38,679 nt of DNA from Syntrophobacterales bacterium (GTDB lineage Bacteria > Desulfobacterota > Syntrophia > Syntrophales > UBA2192). The notes under the pieces are model-generated. The model saw only the letters and a list, made by a program, of their open reading frames with translations. It was not told where the DNA came from and ran no database searches. The position numbers and the translations under genes are program-made. Every line of letters begins with the position of its first letter. Position 1 is the stretch's first letter. This document shows positions 6,371-38,679 of this stretch, piece after piece. Location: contig JAGPKU010000017.1 in assembly GCA_018053845.1 (NCBI GenBank), positions 1 to 38,679 of the forward strand, in the 5' to 3' direction.

Positions 6371-7696
6371 TCACCTCCTCAAGATGGCGCCGGACTGGCC
6401 GTCCCAGTCGGACGGCGGCCTGCGGCCCTGCTGGTCCTTCCACTTCCCGAGCACCCCGTGGCCGTAGAGCTCCTTGAGCTGCTGCTCGCTGCGGCCGAGG
6501 ATCCTCGTCATGATGTAGTCGTTGTCGAACCCGACGGGCCGGACCGACCAGCGGTGCTTGGGCGGAGTCTTGGACATGTTGATGGGGATCTCGTGGTCGA
6601 TGTACTGCCCGTACATCGGGTCGTCGATCTCCTTGACGGCGCCCCGGGCCCGGCGGTGCGGGTCCTCGCACTCGTCCTTGGCCGAGAAGACCCGGGAGGC
6701 CGCAAAGCCGTGCTTGACCCCTAGCCGCTCGACCTCGTCGGCCGTCCTGCCGGCGGCCCAGTCGGCGATGATCTTGAGGATGGCCAGGGCGTTTTCGTCC
6801 TTGAGGCGAGTCTCGTGGTCCTTGAAGCGCGGGTCGGCGGCCAGCTCGGGCTTGCCCATGGCCGCGCAGAGGCCCTTGAACTCGTCGGGCGCCGGTGCGG
6901 CGAGGGCCACGAACTGCCCGTCCTTGCAGTAGAAGGTGTCGGCGGGGCAGATGCACTGGTCCCGGTTGCCCGAGGGCTCGGCGTGCTTCTGCGTCACCTG
7001 CTGGTAGGGCCACACCCAGGTCATGGCCCGCATGATGTTCTCGCTCTGGGACATTTCGATGTACTGGCCCTTGCCCGTGCGCCTGCGGTAATGCAGGGCG
7101 GAGAGCACGGCCACCTCGCCCATCATGGCCCCAAAGACGTCGCAGATCCAGATGCTCTGCTTCAGGGGCGGCTGGCCGGCGAAGCTCGACAGCCAGGCGT
7201 AGCCCGACAGGGCCTGGGCGGCCCCGTCGTTGGAAGGCCGGTCCTCCTCGGCGTAGCGGCCCCACTGGCCGAATCCGTTCTTCTCGATGTAGATGATGCC
7301 GGGGTTGACTTTCTTGATCTCCTCGTAGCCGATGTTCCAGCGGTTGGTGACGGCGGGCCTGAGGTTGAACTCGACCACGTCGGACTTGGCGCAGAGCTCC
7401 TTGAAGATCTGCTGGGCCATGTCGATGTGCAGGTCCAGGGCCATGTAGTACTTGTCAGGGTTGATGTGGATGAACATGGGCCCCTGCTCCTTGTAGAACC
7501 AGCCGAAGGGGTTGAGCGAGCGGGTCACGTCCCCCACGGGGGGCAGCTCGATCTTGATGACCTCGGCGCCCAGCTCGGCCAGGAACGACGGACCCGCGGG
7601 CCCGAAGAGCAGCGTGCAGACTTCGAGGACCCGAATCCCATTGAGCGGGCCGGGCCTCCTGTTCTTGGTCTCGGCGTAATTCCTGAAAACAGTCAT
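6371..7696 (-). CDS. CaiB/BaiF (class III) CoA-transferase subunit with catalytic Asp
   Basis: A 441-residue class III CoA-transferase, which moves CoA between carboxylic acids in the cytoplasm. It shows GIRVLEVCTLLFGPAG (20-35), FLAELGAEVIKIELP (38-52) and AVLSALHYRRRTGKGQ (196-211). Asp186 in WICDVFGAMMGE occupies the position of the acyl-aspartate nucleophile of formyl-CoA transferase. The frame stays open to 8395, but ATG 7696 is chosen because it has an excellent ribosome binding site (AAAGGAGGG) and the family's normal N-terminus starts there; the extension does not look like protein. It is first in a two-gene operon with the Asp-less homologue downstream. The nearest known functional analogue is BbsE/BbsF; the substrate is not determinable. 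Confidence 0.9.
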   Translation of the reverse strand: MTVFRNYAETKNRRPGPLNGIRVLEVCTLLFGPAGPSFLAELGAEVIKIELPPVGDVTRSLNPFGWFYKEQGPMFIHINPDKYYMALDLHIDMAQQIFKELCAKSDVVEFNLRPAVTNRWNIGYEEIKKVNPGIIYIEKNGFGQWGRYAEEDRPSNDGAAQALSGYAWLSSFAGQPPLKQSIWICDVFGAMMGEVAVLSALHYRRRTGKGQYIEMSQSENIMRAMTWVWPYQQVTQKHAEPSGNRDQCICPADTFYCKDGQFVALAAPAPDEFKGLCAAMGKPELAADPRFKDHETRLKDENALAILKIIADWAAGRTADEVERLGVKHGFAASRVFSAKDECEDPHRRARGAVKEIDDPMYGQYIDHEIPINMSKTPPKHRWSVRPVGFDNDYIMTRILGRSEQQLKELYGHGVLGKWKDQQGRRPPSDWDGQSGAILRR

Positions 7697-7875
7697 AACC
7701 GTCCCTCCTTTGAAGACCGCAACGATTGAATGCAGGACTCGGATCATTCCCGTCGAGGACCTGGATTGGGGCACGTTCCACTCTGTGGCCCCGGGTTCAC
7801 CCGCTTTCAGGTTATCGTTGATGTCCGGACACTTCTTGCGCTGAATTTCGTCTCTTCCGGGCACACCGTCAAGTG

Positions 7876-7903
7876 AAGCTCCCCGCCCGCAGGGGCGGGG
7901 CTT
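7876..7903. repeat. GC-rich hairpin
   Basis: CCCCGCCC (7881-7888) and GGGCGGGG (7893-7900) form an 8-bp perfect stem with a 4-nt loop, extended by AAG and CTT. On the minus strand it reads AGCCCCGCCCC then GGGCGGGGAGCTTCAC. This recalls right-end hairpins of IS200/IS605-type elements, but no tnpB is recognisable beside it. It lies in the possible leader of the CoA-transferase operon. Confidence 0.5.
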
Positions 7904-8269
7904 TGCGGCAAGGAAGGTACCAAGCATGATTGTGCGCCCCAAACCGGCCTGCAAGGCGGGGCCTGTGGGACGCGCCCCGTTCAGGCATTGGGCGCAGGGG
8001 ATCACTCCCGAAGGGCCACCCGGCACGATCAGCACCACGGGTGTTCCGAAAGTTCGAAAGGGGGTCGCGGCTCGCCCCAAGGCACTGCAAACCGGTACAG
8101 GTCTGCCCCGCGCAGATGGCGCCAAGGAGGCGTGATCCGCCGTCATGTGCCAACCCTGGAAAAGTCCAAAGAAAGAAACGCTGGAGGTTGCCCGGGTCCT
8201 GACGCTGCCGCTTTTGGAATCGATTGGTTGGTTGCCGCTGACCGATGGACGGGGTAAAATGCAGGTTTT

Positions 8270-8666: not shown

Positions 8667-9764
8667 TTACCGGTTCCCCGACACCTGTGCCCGTTGTCCC
8701 CCCGGTGCCGGCTGAGCACGCCGCTCTTGGAAGACCCCGGCGATGCGGGTGCCGCAGCGCGGGCACTGTCCGTCGCGCAGATCATTTCGCTCCAGCCAGA
8801 AGCCCCGGCGCCGGATCACGGGGCTCGAGCAGCCGGGGCAGAGGGTTTCGGCCGCCTCTCCCACCACGTTTCCGAGGTAGATGTAACGGAGCCCGGTCTT
8901 CCTGCCGATCGCAACGGCGCTCCGCAGCGTCTCGAGGGGGGTCGCGCCGACGCCCATCATCCGGTAATCGGGGTGAAAGCGGCTGATGTGCCAAGGGATG
9001 TCCCGGTCCACCTCGGCGATGAAACGGGCGATGTCCGAAAGCTCCTCCTCGCTGTCGTTGGAGCCGGCGATGACCAGGGTGGTGATCTCGATCCAGATGC
9101 CCAGCTTCTTCATGAAGCGGATGGACTCCAGTACGGGCATGAGCCGGCCCTTGCAGACCTTCCTGTAGAAATCCTCCCGGAAGGATTTCAGGTCCACGTT
9201 TGCGGCATCCAGGAAAGGGGCGATGACCTCGAGGGCCTCCGTGGTCATGAAGCCGTTCGTGACGAAGACGTTGGCCAGCCCCTCGAGCCGGGCCAGGCGG
9301 GAGATGTCGTAGGCATACTCGAAAAAGATCGTCGGCTCCGTGTAGGTGTAGGAGATGCTCCGGCAGTGCTGCGCGAGGGCGGTCTCCACGACATCCTTCG
9401 GCCGCATCCGGAACCCCTCGGCCGCCGAACCGTCGCGGACCGAGATCTGAGAGATCCGCCAGTTCTGGCAGAAAGAACATTTGAAGTTGCAGCCCATGAC
9501 GGCGACGGAAAACGAGGCGGTACCGGGCAGGAAATGGTACAGAGGTTTTTTCTCGATGGGGTCCACGTGGGCGGCGATCAGCTCACCGTAGGCATGGGTC
9601 CAGAGCTTCCCGTCCCGATTCTCGCGCATGCCGCAGACGCCGTACCCCCCGACCGCAACCCTGCAGTGATGATTGCAGAGGTAGCATTCGACGCCGCCTT
9701 CATCGCCCCGGGGACGCCAGAGCACGGCCTCCCTGGGCGTGATGTTGTTCATGCGATTCCTCAT
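8667..9764 (-). CDS. amrS: AmmeMemoRadiSam-type radical SAM enzyme (AmrS)
   Basis: A 365-residue radical SAM protein. An N-terminal cysteine cluster (Cys27, 30, 34, 44) precedes the family signature AHVDPIEKKPLYHFLPG. The cluster motif GCNFKCSFCQNW (Cys92, 96, 99) and YTYTEPTIF follow. A C-terminal zinc ribbon carries two CxxC pairs (CPGC, CPRC) and ends in GTRIAGVF. This matches the radical SAM member of the conserved AMMECR1/Memo/radical SAM trio, whose reaction is not established; the other two genes are not in the window. Two starts are possible, ATG 9764 (AGGGAC upstream) and ATG 9752 (TGAGGA upstream); the longer is given. It is last in a row with a PAS protein and a 65-residue gene behind a likely sigma-54 promoter. 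Confidence 0.92.
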   Translation of the reverse strand: MRNRMNNITPREAVLWRPRGDEGGVECYLCNHHCRVAVGGYGVCGMRENRDGKLWTHAYGELIAAHVDPIEKKPLYHFLPGTASFSVAVMGCNFKCSFCQNWRISQISVRDGSAAEGFRMRPKDVVETALAQHCRSISYTYTEPTIFFEYAYDISRLARLEGLANVFVTNGFMTTEALEVIAPFLDAANVDLKSFREDFYRKVCKGRLMPVLESIRFMKKLGIWIEITTLVIAGSNDSEEELSDIARFIAEVDRDIPWHISRFHPDYRMMGVGATPLETLRSAVAIGRKTGLRYIYLGNVVGEAAETLCPGCSSPVIRRRGFWLERNDLRDGQCPRCGTRIAGVFQERRAQPAPGGQRAQVSGNR

Positions 9765-35781: not shown

Positions 35782-37251
35782 ATGACCCATCACCGCAAGA
35801 CAACCCGGCACGCCTGCCTGGCCCTCGTTCTCGCAGCCATCCTGTTCCTGACTGCAATCCCCCTGCCGGCGCACGCAGCGGGCCTCACGATCGAAGAGGA
35901 GAAGAAGCTCGGCCGCGAGATCTACGAGAAACTGGAGAAGGCCAACGCCCTCTCCAAGAACCAGAAGGCCGTCGACTACATCCGCAAGATCGGCGCGCAG
36001 ATCCTGGCCCAGCAGCAGAGAGTCCCCTTCGATTTCACCTTCAACGTGATCAACAGCTCGGCGATCAACGCCTTCGCCACGCCGGGGGGGTACATCTATA
36101 TCTTCCGGGGCCTCATCACCCTGGCGGAAAACGAAAGCGAGCTGGCCGGCGTGATGGCACACGAAATCGCCCACGCCAACGCGCGCCACATCAACGCCAT
36201 GATGGAGAAGTCCCAGAAGCTCAACATGGCGGCCCTGGCGGGCGTCATCGCGGGGGCCCTGCTGGGCGGCGCGGGCGGTGCCGGCGCCGCGGTGGCCATG
36301 GGCACGATGGCGGGGGCCCAGACGCTGGCCCTCCAGTACAGCCGAGAGCACGAGGAGGAGGCGGACCGCTACGGGATGGCCTACCTCGCGGCGGCCGGGT
36401 ACGACCCGAAGAGCATGGTGGACTTCATGAAGCTCATGCGGCGCCACGAGTACTACTCCAACCTCGTCCCCTCCTACTTTCTCACCCACCCGGGCACGAG
36501 CGACCGCATCCGATACCTCGACAATCTCCTGGAGGCCCGCTACACCGCCAGGGGTAAGGAGAGCATCGTGGGCGGGTTCAGGCGGATCCAGGTCGAGATG
36601 CTGATGGAGGAGAGGAATCTCGAGCCCGTGCTTGCCCGCTTCCGGGGCGAACTGGAGAAAAACCCCTCCGATGTGAACGCCCTCTACGGGCTTGCCGTCG
36701 TGCAGGCCAAGCTCGGGCAGACGAAGGACGCCGAGGCGAACATCCGCTCGGCGCTCCGACTCGCCCCGGAAGACCCCGACATCCTGCGGGACGCCGGCAT
36801 CATCGCCTACCTGGCCGGCCGCTATCCCGATGCGGCGCAGTTCCTCCGGAAAGCCTACCAGGTGAACGACGCCGACGCGGAGACGGTCCTCTACTTGGGG
36901 AAGGCCTACGAGCAGACGGGCGACCATTTCACGGCGCTCGAGCTGTACCGCAAGGCCCAGTCGGCCGGGATCGCCGACGACCAGATCATCTACGGCCTCG
37001 CCACGGCCTACGGGCAGCTGAACAACCCCGGCGAATCGCACTACTGGTTCGGGACCTACTTCAAGAAAAAGAACAAGAAGGACAGCGCCCTGTTCCATTA
37101 CCGGGCGGCGCTCGGCCGGTTCCCGGCCGACAGCGACCGGGCCCGGGAGATCCGGCAAGAGATCGAGACCCTCCAGAAACCGCCCCAGAAACCGGGAACG
37201 GCGCAGAACGACCCCCGCGCCCCGAGCCGCACGAGAAGGGTTCCCTACTGA
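35782..37251 (+). CDS. M48 family zinc metalloprotease with TPR repeats (BepA/YfgC-like)
   Basis: A 489-residue periplasmic protease. A signal peptide (about 1-32, cleavage near PAHA-A) is followed by the M48 domain with the zinc site HEIAH (His127, Glu128, His131) and the third-ligand region EHEEEADRYG. A glycine/alanine-rich hydrophobic loop (about 149-180) lies between them. From about 280 to 460 the sequence forms TPR helices (NALYGLAVVQAKLGQ, VLYLGKAYEQTGDHFTALELY). This is the layout of BepA, which assists and degrades outer-membrane proteins such as LptD. The gene is single, with its own promoter and a terminator behind it. The ribosome binding site at ATG 35782 is weak. Confidence 0.93.
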   Translation: MTHHRKTTRHACLALVLAAILFLTAIPLPAHAAGLTIEEEKKLGREIYEKLEKANALSKNQKAVDYIRKIGAQILAQQQRVPFDFTFNVINSSAINAFATPGGYIYIFRGLITLAENESELAGVMAHEIAHANARHINAMMEKSQKLNMAALAGVIAGALLGGAGGAGAAVAMGTMAGAQTLALQYSREHEEEADRYGMAYLAAAGYDPKSMVDFMKLMRRHEYYSNLVPSYFLTHPGTSDRIRYLDNLLEARYTARGKESIVGGFRRIQVEMLMEERNLEPVLARFRGELEKNPSDVNALYGLAVVQAKLGQTKDAEANIRSALRLAPEDPDILRDAGIIAYLAGRYPDAAQFLRKAYQVNDADAETVLYLGKAYEQTGDHFTALELYRKAQSAGIADDQIIYGLATAYGQLNNPGESHYWFGTYFKKKNKKDSALFHYRAALGRFPADSDRAREIRQEIETLQKPPQKPGTAQNDPRAPSRTRRVPY

Positions 37252-37360: not shown

Positions 37361-37436
37361 TGGAGGCGGCAACCGGATTCGAACCGGTGAATAACGGTTT
37401 TGCAGACCGCTGCCTTAGCCACTTGGCTATGCCGCC
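37361..37436 (-). tRNA. tRNA-Cys (anticodon GCA)
   Basis: A complete 76-nt cloverleaf with encoded CCA. Acceptor GGCGGCA pairs with TGCCGCC, the discriminator is U as in tRNA-Cys, the anticodon loop CTGCAAA gives GCA and the T-loop is TTCGAAT. It lies 9 bp after tRNA-Gly on the same strand. Confidence 0.97.
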
Positions 37437-37445
37437 GCTATGGAC

Positions 37446-37520
37446 TGGAGCGGGCGAACGGATTTGAACCGTCGACGTCTACCTTGGCAAGGTAGCACTC
37501 TACCGCTGAGTTACGCCCGC
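37446..37520 (-). tRNA. tRNA-Gly (anticodon GCC)
   Basis: A complete 75-nt cloverleaf with encoded CCA. Acceptor GCGGGCG pairs with CGCCCGC, the anticodon loop TTGCCAA gives GCC and the T-loop is TTCAAAT. It is the first gene of a Gly-Cys tRNA pair. Confidence 0.97.
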
Positions 37521-37540
37521 TCGTTCTCAAAGAGAGGAGA

Positions 37541-37569
37541 AATATGAACAAAAGATCGCCGCTTGTCAA
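37541..37569 (-). promoter_or_regulatory. Promoter of the tRNA-Gly/tRNA-Cys operon
   Basis: Minus-strand TTGACA (37569-37564) is followed after 17 bp by CATATT (37546-37541), 21 bp from the first base of tRNA-Gly. Confidence 0.75.
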
Positions 37570-37594
37570 CAAAAAATTGCAGAGCTTTTTCCCC

Positions 37595-37623
37595 TTGAAA
37601 AACGAATTCCTTTGCGCTATAGG
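37595..37623 (+). promoter_or_regulatory. Promoter of tRNA-Val
   Basis: TTGAAA (37595-37600) and TATAGG (37618-37623) are 17 bp apart, 10 bp from the first base of the tRNA. Confidence 0.7.
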
Positions 37624-37633
37624 ATGGCCACAC

Positions 37634-37708
37634 GGGCGGTTAACTCAGCGGGAGAGTGCTACCTTCACACGGTAGAAGTCACTGGTTCAAATCCAGTACC
37701 GCCTACCA
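37634..37708 (+). tRNA. tRNA-Val (anticodon CAC)
   Basis: A complete 75-nt cloverleaf with encoded CCA. Acceptor GGGCGGT pairs with ACCGCCT (one G-U), the anticodon stem CTACC/GGTAG encloses the loop TTCACAC giving CAC (codon GUG), and the T-loop is TTCAAAT. Confidence 0.93.
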
Positions 37709-37821: not shown

Positions 37822-38679
37822 ATGATCTCCCGGCGCGAATTCATGCAGTCCCTGGCCCGGCTGGCGCCGGTGCTCGGCGTCTCGGGGCTCGTCCTGTCGG
37901 AGCCCGCCGCGCTCCGGGCCCTCCTGGACACCCTGGGAGGGACCGCCCTGGCGTGGGGAACGGCGGATGAGCTGATCCGCGAGGCGCCGCGCGCCCGTTT
38001 CTGGTCCTCCGCCCCGAAGGGCCGCGTCCAGTGCCGCCTGTGCGCCCGCGAGTGCCTGCTGGCCGACGGGCAGCGGGGCCTGTGCCGCTCGAGGATCAAC
38101 GTGGGCGGCGAGATGCGGAGCCTCGTCTACGGGCGGCCGGTCTCCGTGCACGTGGACCCCATCGAGAAGAAGCCCTTCTACCACTTCCTGCCCGGCTCGC
38201 AGGCCTATTCCATCGGCACGACGGGCTGCCCGCTGCGCTGCAAATTCTGCCAGAACTGGCAGACCTCCCAGGCCTCGCCGGAGGACTTTCACGTCCGGTT
38301 CACCCCGCCCGGAACGATCGTCGAATCGGTGCGCTCCCGCAAGGTTCCCGTCATCGCCTACACCTACAACGAGCCGCTGGTCTTCACGGAGTACCTGCTC
38401 GACATCGCGGGCGCCGCCCGCCTGCGCGGCATCCGCTCGACGATGGTGACCTGCGGGTACATGGCCCCCGGTGCCCTCTCGGAGGTCTGCAAGGCGCTCG
38501 ACGCCGTGAAGGTCGATTTGAAGGGCTCCAGCGAGGGCTTCTACCGCGACGTCTGCGGCGGCGAGCTCAAGCCCGTGCTCCGGACGATCCGGCAGATCGC
38601 GAAGAGCCGCGTGCACCTGGAGATCGTCAACCTCGTCGTCCCGACCCTCAACGATTCCGACCGGATGATCGCCGACCTC
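37822..38679 (+). CDS. AmrS-like radical SAM protein with a twin-arginine N-terminus, partial
   Basis: The frame from ATG 37822 stays open to the window edge (286 residues). It is homologous to the AmrS protein at 8667-9764: cysteines 71, 74, 78 and 88, VHVDPIEKKPFYHFLPG, the radical SAM motif GCPLRCKFCQNW (Cys136, 140, 143) and YTYNEPLVF. Unlike that copy it begins with MISRREFMQSLARLAP followed by a hydrophobic stretch, a twin-arginine (Tat) signal pattern, and about 65 extra residues precede the cysteines. Export of a folded [4Fe-4S] radical SAM enzyme would be unusual. There is no clear ribosome binding site at this ATG; ATG 37843 inside the signal would remove the RR motif. The C-terminus is outside the window. 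Confidence 0.88.
   Translation, partial: MISRREFMQSLARLAPVLGVSGLVLSEPAALRALLDTLGGTALAWGTADELIREAPRARFWSSAPKGRVQCRLCARECLLADGQRGLCRSRINVGGEMRSLVYGRPVSVHVDPIEKKPFYHFLPGSQAYSIGTTGCPLRCKFCQNWQTSQASPEDFHVRFTPPGTIVESVRSRKVPVIAYTYNEPLVFTEYLLDIAGAARLRGIRSTMVTCGYMAPGALSEVCKALDAVKVDLKGSSEGFYRDVCGGELKPVLRTIRQIAKSRVHLEIVNLVVPTLNDSDRMIADL

Follow-up and report, generated by a model that had tools for sequence, protein, structure and literature searches.

A probable extracytoplasmic AmmeMemoRadiSam module with a twin-arginine AmrS in a Syntrophobacterales bacterium

The right-hand end of the DNA analysed here (the window; 38,679 nucleotides from a Syntrophobacterales bacterium) lies within a gene for a radical SAM protein of the AmrS type, the product of which begins with a twin-arginine motif. 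We consider it probable (roughly 0.75, as judged from sequence comparisons) that this AmrS is the radical SAM part of an AmmeMemoRadiSam module situated outside the cytoplasm, exported by the Tat pathway and provided, in many of its members, with a haem-c electron inlet.

The AmrS gene and its N-terminus

The window is the whole of contig C18 of a 2.65 Mb genome in 162 contigs, and the end of this contig falls inside the AmrS gene. No stop codon interrupts the forward frame at 37822-38679 before the window ends; its 286 residues, reading MISRREFMQSLARLAPVLGVSGLVLSEP... and beginning with MISRREFM, correspond to the 5' part of an RR-type gene of 389 codons read across C18 and contig C23, the end of which encodes a 42-residue identical piece and overlaps the window exactly over 126 bases. 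The partial window protein scores 240 bits against TIGR04337 (cut-off 220; the complete orthologue at locus L043 reaches 377 bits), contains the CX3CX2C motif and is encoded together with Memo and AMMECR1. A second AmrS gene, of the cytoplasmic type and devoid of an N-terminal extension, lies at 8667-9764 on the reverse strand and scores 347 bits, so that both exceed the cut-off, in agreement with the initial annotation, which had counted two AmrS homologues in the window. The two copies are 43% identical over their aligned part; a third AmrS of the genome lies on contig C127, and TatC, of the Tat translocase, is encoded on contig C17. Directly 5' of the AmrS gene, at 37361-37708, there are genes for tRNA-Cys and tRNA-Gly (reverse strand) and tRNA-Val (forward strand), preceded by a forward frame at 35782-37251 in which inspection by eye showed a metallopeptidase-like HExxH motif (HEIAHANARH) and, in the C-terminal half, a repeat-like character.

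Codons 1-26 (37822-37899, forward strand) form a Tat-type signal, in which the n-region MISRREFMQ is followed by a moderately hydrophobic stretch. When 60 genomes, that of the window included, were searched with the window protein, a match was obtained in 57 and a full-length orthologue in 18, that is its own and 17 others, which are 57-89% identical. M1, R4 and R5 are kept in all 18, down to 57% identity. Comparison with the three nearest orthologues gave 3, 3 and 5 amino-acid changes among the 26 codons of the signal, and 7, 9 and 11 among the 31 of the linker (codons 27-57). The invariance of these three residues and the better preservation of codons 1-26 than of the linker make it very probable that translation starts at ATG 37822. 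A wrongly assigned start, with translation from ATG 37843 or later and the arginine pair outside the protein, would agree with the failure to see a clear Shine-Dalgarno sequence before 37822 by eye, but the same invariance and conservation contradict it, and we find it highly improbable; the initial annotation had itself named such a start as refuting the signal. The twin-arginine pattern with its hydrophobic stretch, noticed at that time, was borne out by a survey of orthologue N-termini, then suggested as a check, in which none lacked the pair. A chance occurrence of RR was rejected on account of its presence in 18 of 18 orthologues and its absence from 54 of 55 other AmrS genes read in relatives.

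With SRREFM and a hydrophobic stretch near its start, the window protein passes a home-made rule for Tat substrates. This rule is a rough aid: of the 80 rows with the label tat or tatH it accepts 61 (of two failing tat rows, L102 and L131, one is cut and one mislabelled), but it also accepts two of the 16 with the label none (L068 and L072, where RR lies further inside) and two of the 8 with the label sec. The genome has 34 radical SAM places, three of which are on the window contig. Of the remaining 31, three of them truncated upstream, two pass, both inside the protein and far from a plausible start, which makes chance a poor explanation for the RR of the window protein. Curated Tat models, which are very short, gave no match for the window protein. 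When seven N-termini were compared with NCBIfam, that of the window and four others were without a Tat match and two stayed below the cut-off, and the Pfam model PF10518 matched only 7 of 65 aligned proteins even with E values as high as 10 admitted, the best E value being 0.0011. No clear AxA cleavage site is seen in the window protein, and its hydrophobic stretch is short.

The twin-arginine form among relatives and its neighbouring genes

On the evidence of the sequences compared, AmrS in these genomes is of two clear kinds. A further 58 AmrS places were retrieved from the 60 genomes, contig-edge matches in G059 and G051 being left out; four of the 58 coincide with loci L031, L032, L033 and L035. 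The core was readable in 55 and not recognisable in three. In 54 of the 55 the start codon stands 11-26 residues before the core, with no credible RR by eye, and the 55th is an RR protein. A second, more distant RR-AmrS form occurs in 8 of the 60 genomes.

A scan of named genomes confirmed at least 566 relatives. Of these, the best 80, ranked by their similarity to the RR orthologues, were retained, which biases the sample towards the RR kind. Sorted by hand, these best 80 of at least 566 comprise 59 RR loci, 2 with KR or RK, 8 with a Sec-like or membrane-type N-terminus and no RR, 7 without an extension, 2 cut by contig ends and 2 that are doubtful. Within the same best 80, 57 of the 59 RR loci have S or T immediately in front of RR, and 57 have F or L at the second position behind it. 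According to record titles, the RR loci among these best 80 of at least 566 span about ten phyla, and include Deltaproteobacteria/Desulfobacterota lines, Acidobacteria, Latescibacterota, Calditrichaeota, Ignavibacteriales, KSB1, Eisenbacteria, Aminicenantes, Chloroflexi, Myxococcales and Omnitrophota. AmrS of loci L142, L145, L149, L151, L123, L127, L144 and L147 has a Sec-like or membrane helix in place of the Tat motif; the hosts of such AmrS in the best 80 of at least 566 are Omnitrophota, Elusimicrobia and Auribacterota. These sequences suggest that AmrS may be exported by other routes too, the helix possibly giving AmrS an independent means of leaving the cytoplasm.

The partner proteins of the twin-arginine AmrS carry apparent signals as well. 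On C23, a Memo-AMMECR1 fusion of 514 residues begins 87 bases after the amrS stop and exceeds the cut-offs of both TIGR04336 and TIGR04335; its N-terminus, MAMKKPRIWLWLLMPLLLSPAGCEAADKADSS, is by eye a lipoprotein-type signal. The initial annotation had pointed to the genes after 38679 as a place to look for AMMECR1 and Memo, and it is the very next gene that encodes both, with a signal-like start. A hydrophobic N-terminal signal on the downstream Memo-AMMECR1 was seen by eye in all 17 readable orthologues (L056 reads N there), many of these signals having a lipobox-like cysteine. The fusion gene is followed by one for a protein of 720 residues, in which many hydrophobic segments surround a Spermine_synth domain. 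This spermidine-synthase-like membrane gene stands beside or near 16 of the 18 orthologues, the distance in L055 being one gene, and was not found at L052 and L058. It is also present at all seven fetched loci of the second RR form and, on the same strand, at 36 of the 59 RR loci among the best 80 of at least 566.

For the named loci (best 80 of at least 566), Memo lies just downstream in 46 of the 59 RR loci, including L116 and L120, the frames of which open far upstream. None was found just downstream in the other 13 RR loci of these 80, of which two end with the contig and 11, that of Desulfonema magnum (L079) among them, had 3.8 to 6.7 kb of downstream sequence. A Memo N-terminus was counted as hydrophobic when the mean hydropathy reached a limit of 1.6 across 13 residues, the measure being applied to the in-frame residues before the Memo motif (45 in controls and further Memos, 50 in named loci) with the start codon not fixed. 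By this measure, a hydrophobic N-terminus is found in 42 of the 43 readable Memos from the 46 RR-AmrS loci (in the exception, L124, the hydrophobic part is further upstream) and in 48 of 49 Memos of named loci whatever their AmrS, both counts referring to the best 80 of at least 566. The limit was reached by 5 of 30 control Memos, four of the five coming from genomes with the second RR form.

Eighteen further Memos were fetched; 15 were readable and 14 of these belong to genomes with no detected RR-AmrS. Six of the 14 (G008, G043, G055, G019, G035 and G047) have a hydrophobic N-terminus by the same measure. In some of them translation may begin at an inner start, after an apparent ribosome-binding site that would otherwise seem to be translated, in which case the hydrophobic part would not be real. 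At L157, L162, L164, L165, L242 and L247, a hydrophobic in-frame stretch lies 5' of an inner Memo start preceded by a ribosome-binding-site-like sequence; two starts could possibly give an exported and a cytoplasmic form of Memo there. In the Nitrospirota loci L131 (AmrS at 6854-7987) and L135 (7001-7990), AmrS has no extension and the Memo-AMMECR1 fusion encoded after it bears a lipoprotein-type signal, an arrangement which, if the signals are read at face value, would place the two proteins on opposite sides of the membrane. A strict rule that RR-AmrS occurs if and only if Memo bears a signal was not upheld, given these six Memos, the two Nitrospirota loci and the 11 RR loci lacking Memo; as far as the sequences tell, the two signals are not strictly tied. 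A third type of Memo, extended at its N-terminus by an additional unassigned domain, is encoded at L070 (8142-9431), with relatives in L060, L065 and L066; in three loci it lies downstream of the second RR-AmrS.

These data bear on the reading in which the N-terminus is a membrane anchor, AmrS staying on the cytoplasmic face with cytoplasmic SAM and reductants, and the arginines serving as a positive flank only. The lack of a clear cleavage site in the window protein, the presence of SAM and low-potential reductants inside the cell, the pairing of an extension-less AmrS with a signal-bearing Memo in L131 and L135, and the 11 RR loci (best 80 of at least 566) without Memo in sufficient downstream DNA would all be compatible with it. 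However, a single N-terminal helix with a positive N-side would put the enzyme outside, and an arginine pair that is invariant among the 18 orthologues and that, in nearly all RR loci (best 80 of at least 566), has S or T in front and F or L behind, exceeds what an anchor needs. Moreover, the neighbouring Memo-AMMECR1, where present, has its own signal, and the CxxCH motif with a distal His, described below, is kept across phyla, haem c being attached outside the inner membrane. An anchor on the cytoplasmic face seems to us quite unlikely. Export is the preferred reading: an exported or membrane-held AmrS, raised when the window was first annotated, finds support at the sequence level in the conserved RR and in the signal-like start of the next gene's product.

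The catalytic domain and the CxxCH loop

The RR form of AmrS looks like a working radical SAM enzyme, both in its predicted sequence motifs and in its modelled fold. The window protein has a four-cysteine motif, C71-x2-C74-x3-C78-x9-C88 (38032-38085), which is invariant also in the aligned cytoplasmic-type AmrS, the CX3CX2C radical SAM cluster motif CPLRCKFC (C136, C140 and C143; 38227-38250) and a DLK motif (38515-38523), all on the forward strand. In a profile search, the last is aligned with DLK of pyruvate formate-lyase (PFL) activating enzyme, where it contacts SAM. Alignment of 65 proteins showed no variation in the cluster cysteines or in the D and K of DLK. An AlphaFold2 model of the loop-bearing AmrS from L051 has a mean pLDDT of 91.6, and its nearest solved fold is that of the PFL activating enzyme (PDB 3cb8), with a TM-score of 0.81 by target length and 0.49 by query length. 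SAM chemistry is probably retained, because the putative SAM-contact residues are kept. An exported AmrS which had given up radical SAM chemistry, to act as an iron-sulfur electron carrier or as a structural partner of the Memo-AMMECR1 lipoprotein, would be spared the need for SAM outside the cell, for which we know of no supply; the invariance of the cluster and DLK residues in all 65 proteins and the match to the PFL activating enzyme fold nevertheless make this an unlikely reading, and a catalytic AmrS is preferred.

The linker between the signal and the four-cysteine motif (37900-38031, forward strand) is variable. In 9 of the 18 orthologues, and in 42 of the 59 RR loci among the best 80 of at least 566, it contains a CxxCH loop with a distal His just before the four-cysteine motif; CxxCH is absent from the window protein. 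The loop alignment holds 43 CxxCH-bearing rows out of 65, in which C, C and H reach 100% by selection. The distal His, 13 residues on and outside the selection, is conserved at 98% in these 43 rows, the positions between being at 16-51%. CxxCH is the haem-c signature, and from this pattern CxxCH with the distal His is likely to be a haem-c site, one that fits a single bis-His haem c. ResB, a cytochrome c maturation protein, is encoded in 9 of 9 loop-bearing related genomes (as a fragment in G012), in 6 of 9 loop-less RR genomes and in 45 of the 60 genomes overall, so that its presence, although required for haem attachment, does not prove it.

It could be argued that the loop binds zinc or an iron-sulfur cluster in place of haem, AmrS then being exported without such an electron inlet. 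AmrS proteins do have other cysteine sites, the loop was modelled with low confidence in L051 (block pLDDT about 64-70), no Pfam cytochrome family exceeded its cut-off in the six proteins compared (best NrfB-like, E 0.085, in one protein), and ResB, as stated, is not confined to loop-bearing genomes. On the other side stand the haem-c signature itself, the second His conserved at its fixed distance, and the occurrence of ResB in every loop-bearing genome. A metal site of this other sort is in our opinion improbable, and haem c is the preferred ligand.

That the window protein lacks the loop is probably secondary, the loop having been lost in descent from an exported ancestor that had it. In a quick tree of 108 catalytic cores, from which the signal and loop columns were left out, the orthologues fall inside a 63-row group (SH-aLRT 100), and the window gene lies in a 30-row subgroup (SH-aLRT 96). 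All of the remaining 33 rows have CxxCH. A careful tree of 43 rows needs three changes of the loop trait, and the placement of 17 loop-less rows in one clade was rejected (p-AU 0.00015, with the unlabelled row L114 left out; counting L114 among the loop-less rows gave 1.7e-07, an unfair test, so the former value is used). The loop-bearing state of the 33 outer rows and the rejection of a single loop-less clade are the grounds for assuming loss, and the direction of change follows from the rooting of the tree and from the neighbouring Chloroflexi rows, 7 of 8 of which have the loop. Apparent remnants of the loop (LHKD, SHEH) are seen in several loop-less relatives.

Proposed mechanism and its significance

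One plausible sequence of events would begin in the cytoplasm, where AmrS would fold and take up its 4Fe-4S cluster. The folded protein would then cross the inner membrane by Tat, in accordance with the signal seen, to be either held in the membrane or released into the periplasm, and the Memo-AMMECR1 fusion, judging from its own signal, would leave as a lipoprotein or a Sec substrate. The polytopic protein with the spermidine-synthase-like domain would reside in the membrane, as its sequence predicts. In many members, a single c-type haem might sit on the loop beside the catalytic domain and pass electrons from a periplasmic or quinone chain, replacing cytoplasmic flavodoxin; in the lineage of the window, from which the loop was probably lost, another electron donor would have to be assumed. 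SAM would be used outside the cytoplasm, where we know of no SAM pool. The spermidine-synthase-like fold binds a SAM relative, and the membrane protein bearing it is a candidate for the supplier of SAM on the outer side. Put most broadly, this would amount to a radical SAM system outside the cytoplasm in about ten phyla, with AmrS typically being a radical SAM and haem-c protein in one, drawing on periplasmic electrons and receiving SAM delivered across the membrane, perhaps by the spermidine-synthase-like protein; we put forward this extended version tentatively, considering the odds to be somewhat against it.

The proposed module can be set against three known systems. It belongs to AmmeMemoRadiSam (AmrS, TIGR04337; AmrB, TIGR04336; AmrA, TIGR04335), all three models of which are matched here, with radical SAM, Memo and AMMECR1 side by side. 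It differs from that system in the signal-type N-termini of AmrS and of the Memo-AMMECR1 fusion and in the attached membrane gene, although a separate Memo and AMMECR1 pair, with a Memo devoid of a signal, is also encoded in this genome, on contig C106 (a third Memo lies on C159). With the PFL activating enzyme, its best solved fold match, AmrS shares the aligned cluster and DLK motifs at about 19% identity; that enzyme, however, is cytoplasmic, and nothing in its chain of 244 residues corresponds to the Tat signal, the N-terminal four-cysteine region or the haem loop. Finally, the S/T-R-R-x-F/L N-terminus is shared with Tat-exported iron-sulfur and haem proteins, which would be paralleled in the export of a folded cofactor protein, but to our knowledge none of them is a radical SAM enzyme.

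The AmmeMemoRadiSam family is already known. PMC7159879 refers to Burroughs et al. 2019 for Memo-Ammecr1 systems. The passages of the literature consulted contain no statement on a Tat-exported radical SAM enzyme, nor any description of an exported, haem-bearing AmrS. Within those bounds, the exported, haem-bearing form appears to be new.

Since the cytoplasm is where SAM and strong reductants are found, radical SAM enzymes are assumed to work there. If our reading is correct, a conserved exported AmrS, often with a haem-c inlet of its own, would break this rule, and the question of how SAM is supplied outside the inner membrane would be raised. Memo and AMMECR1 have both been linked to human disease, and the exported set would offer a route to their function, because its substrate would have to lie in the envelope.
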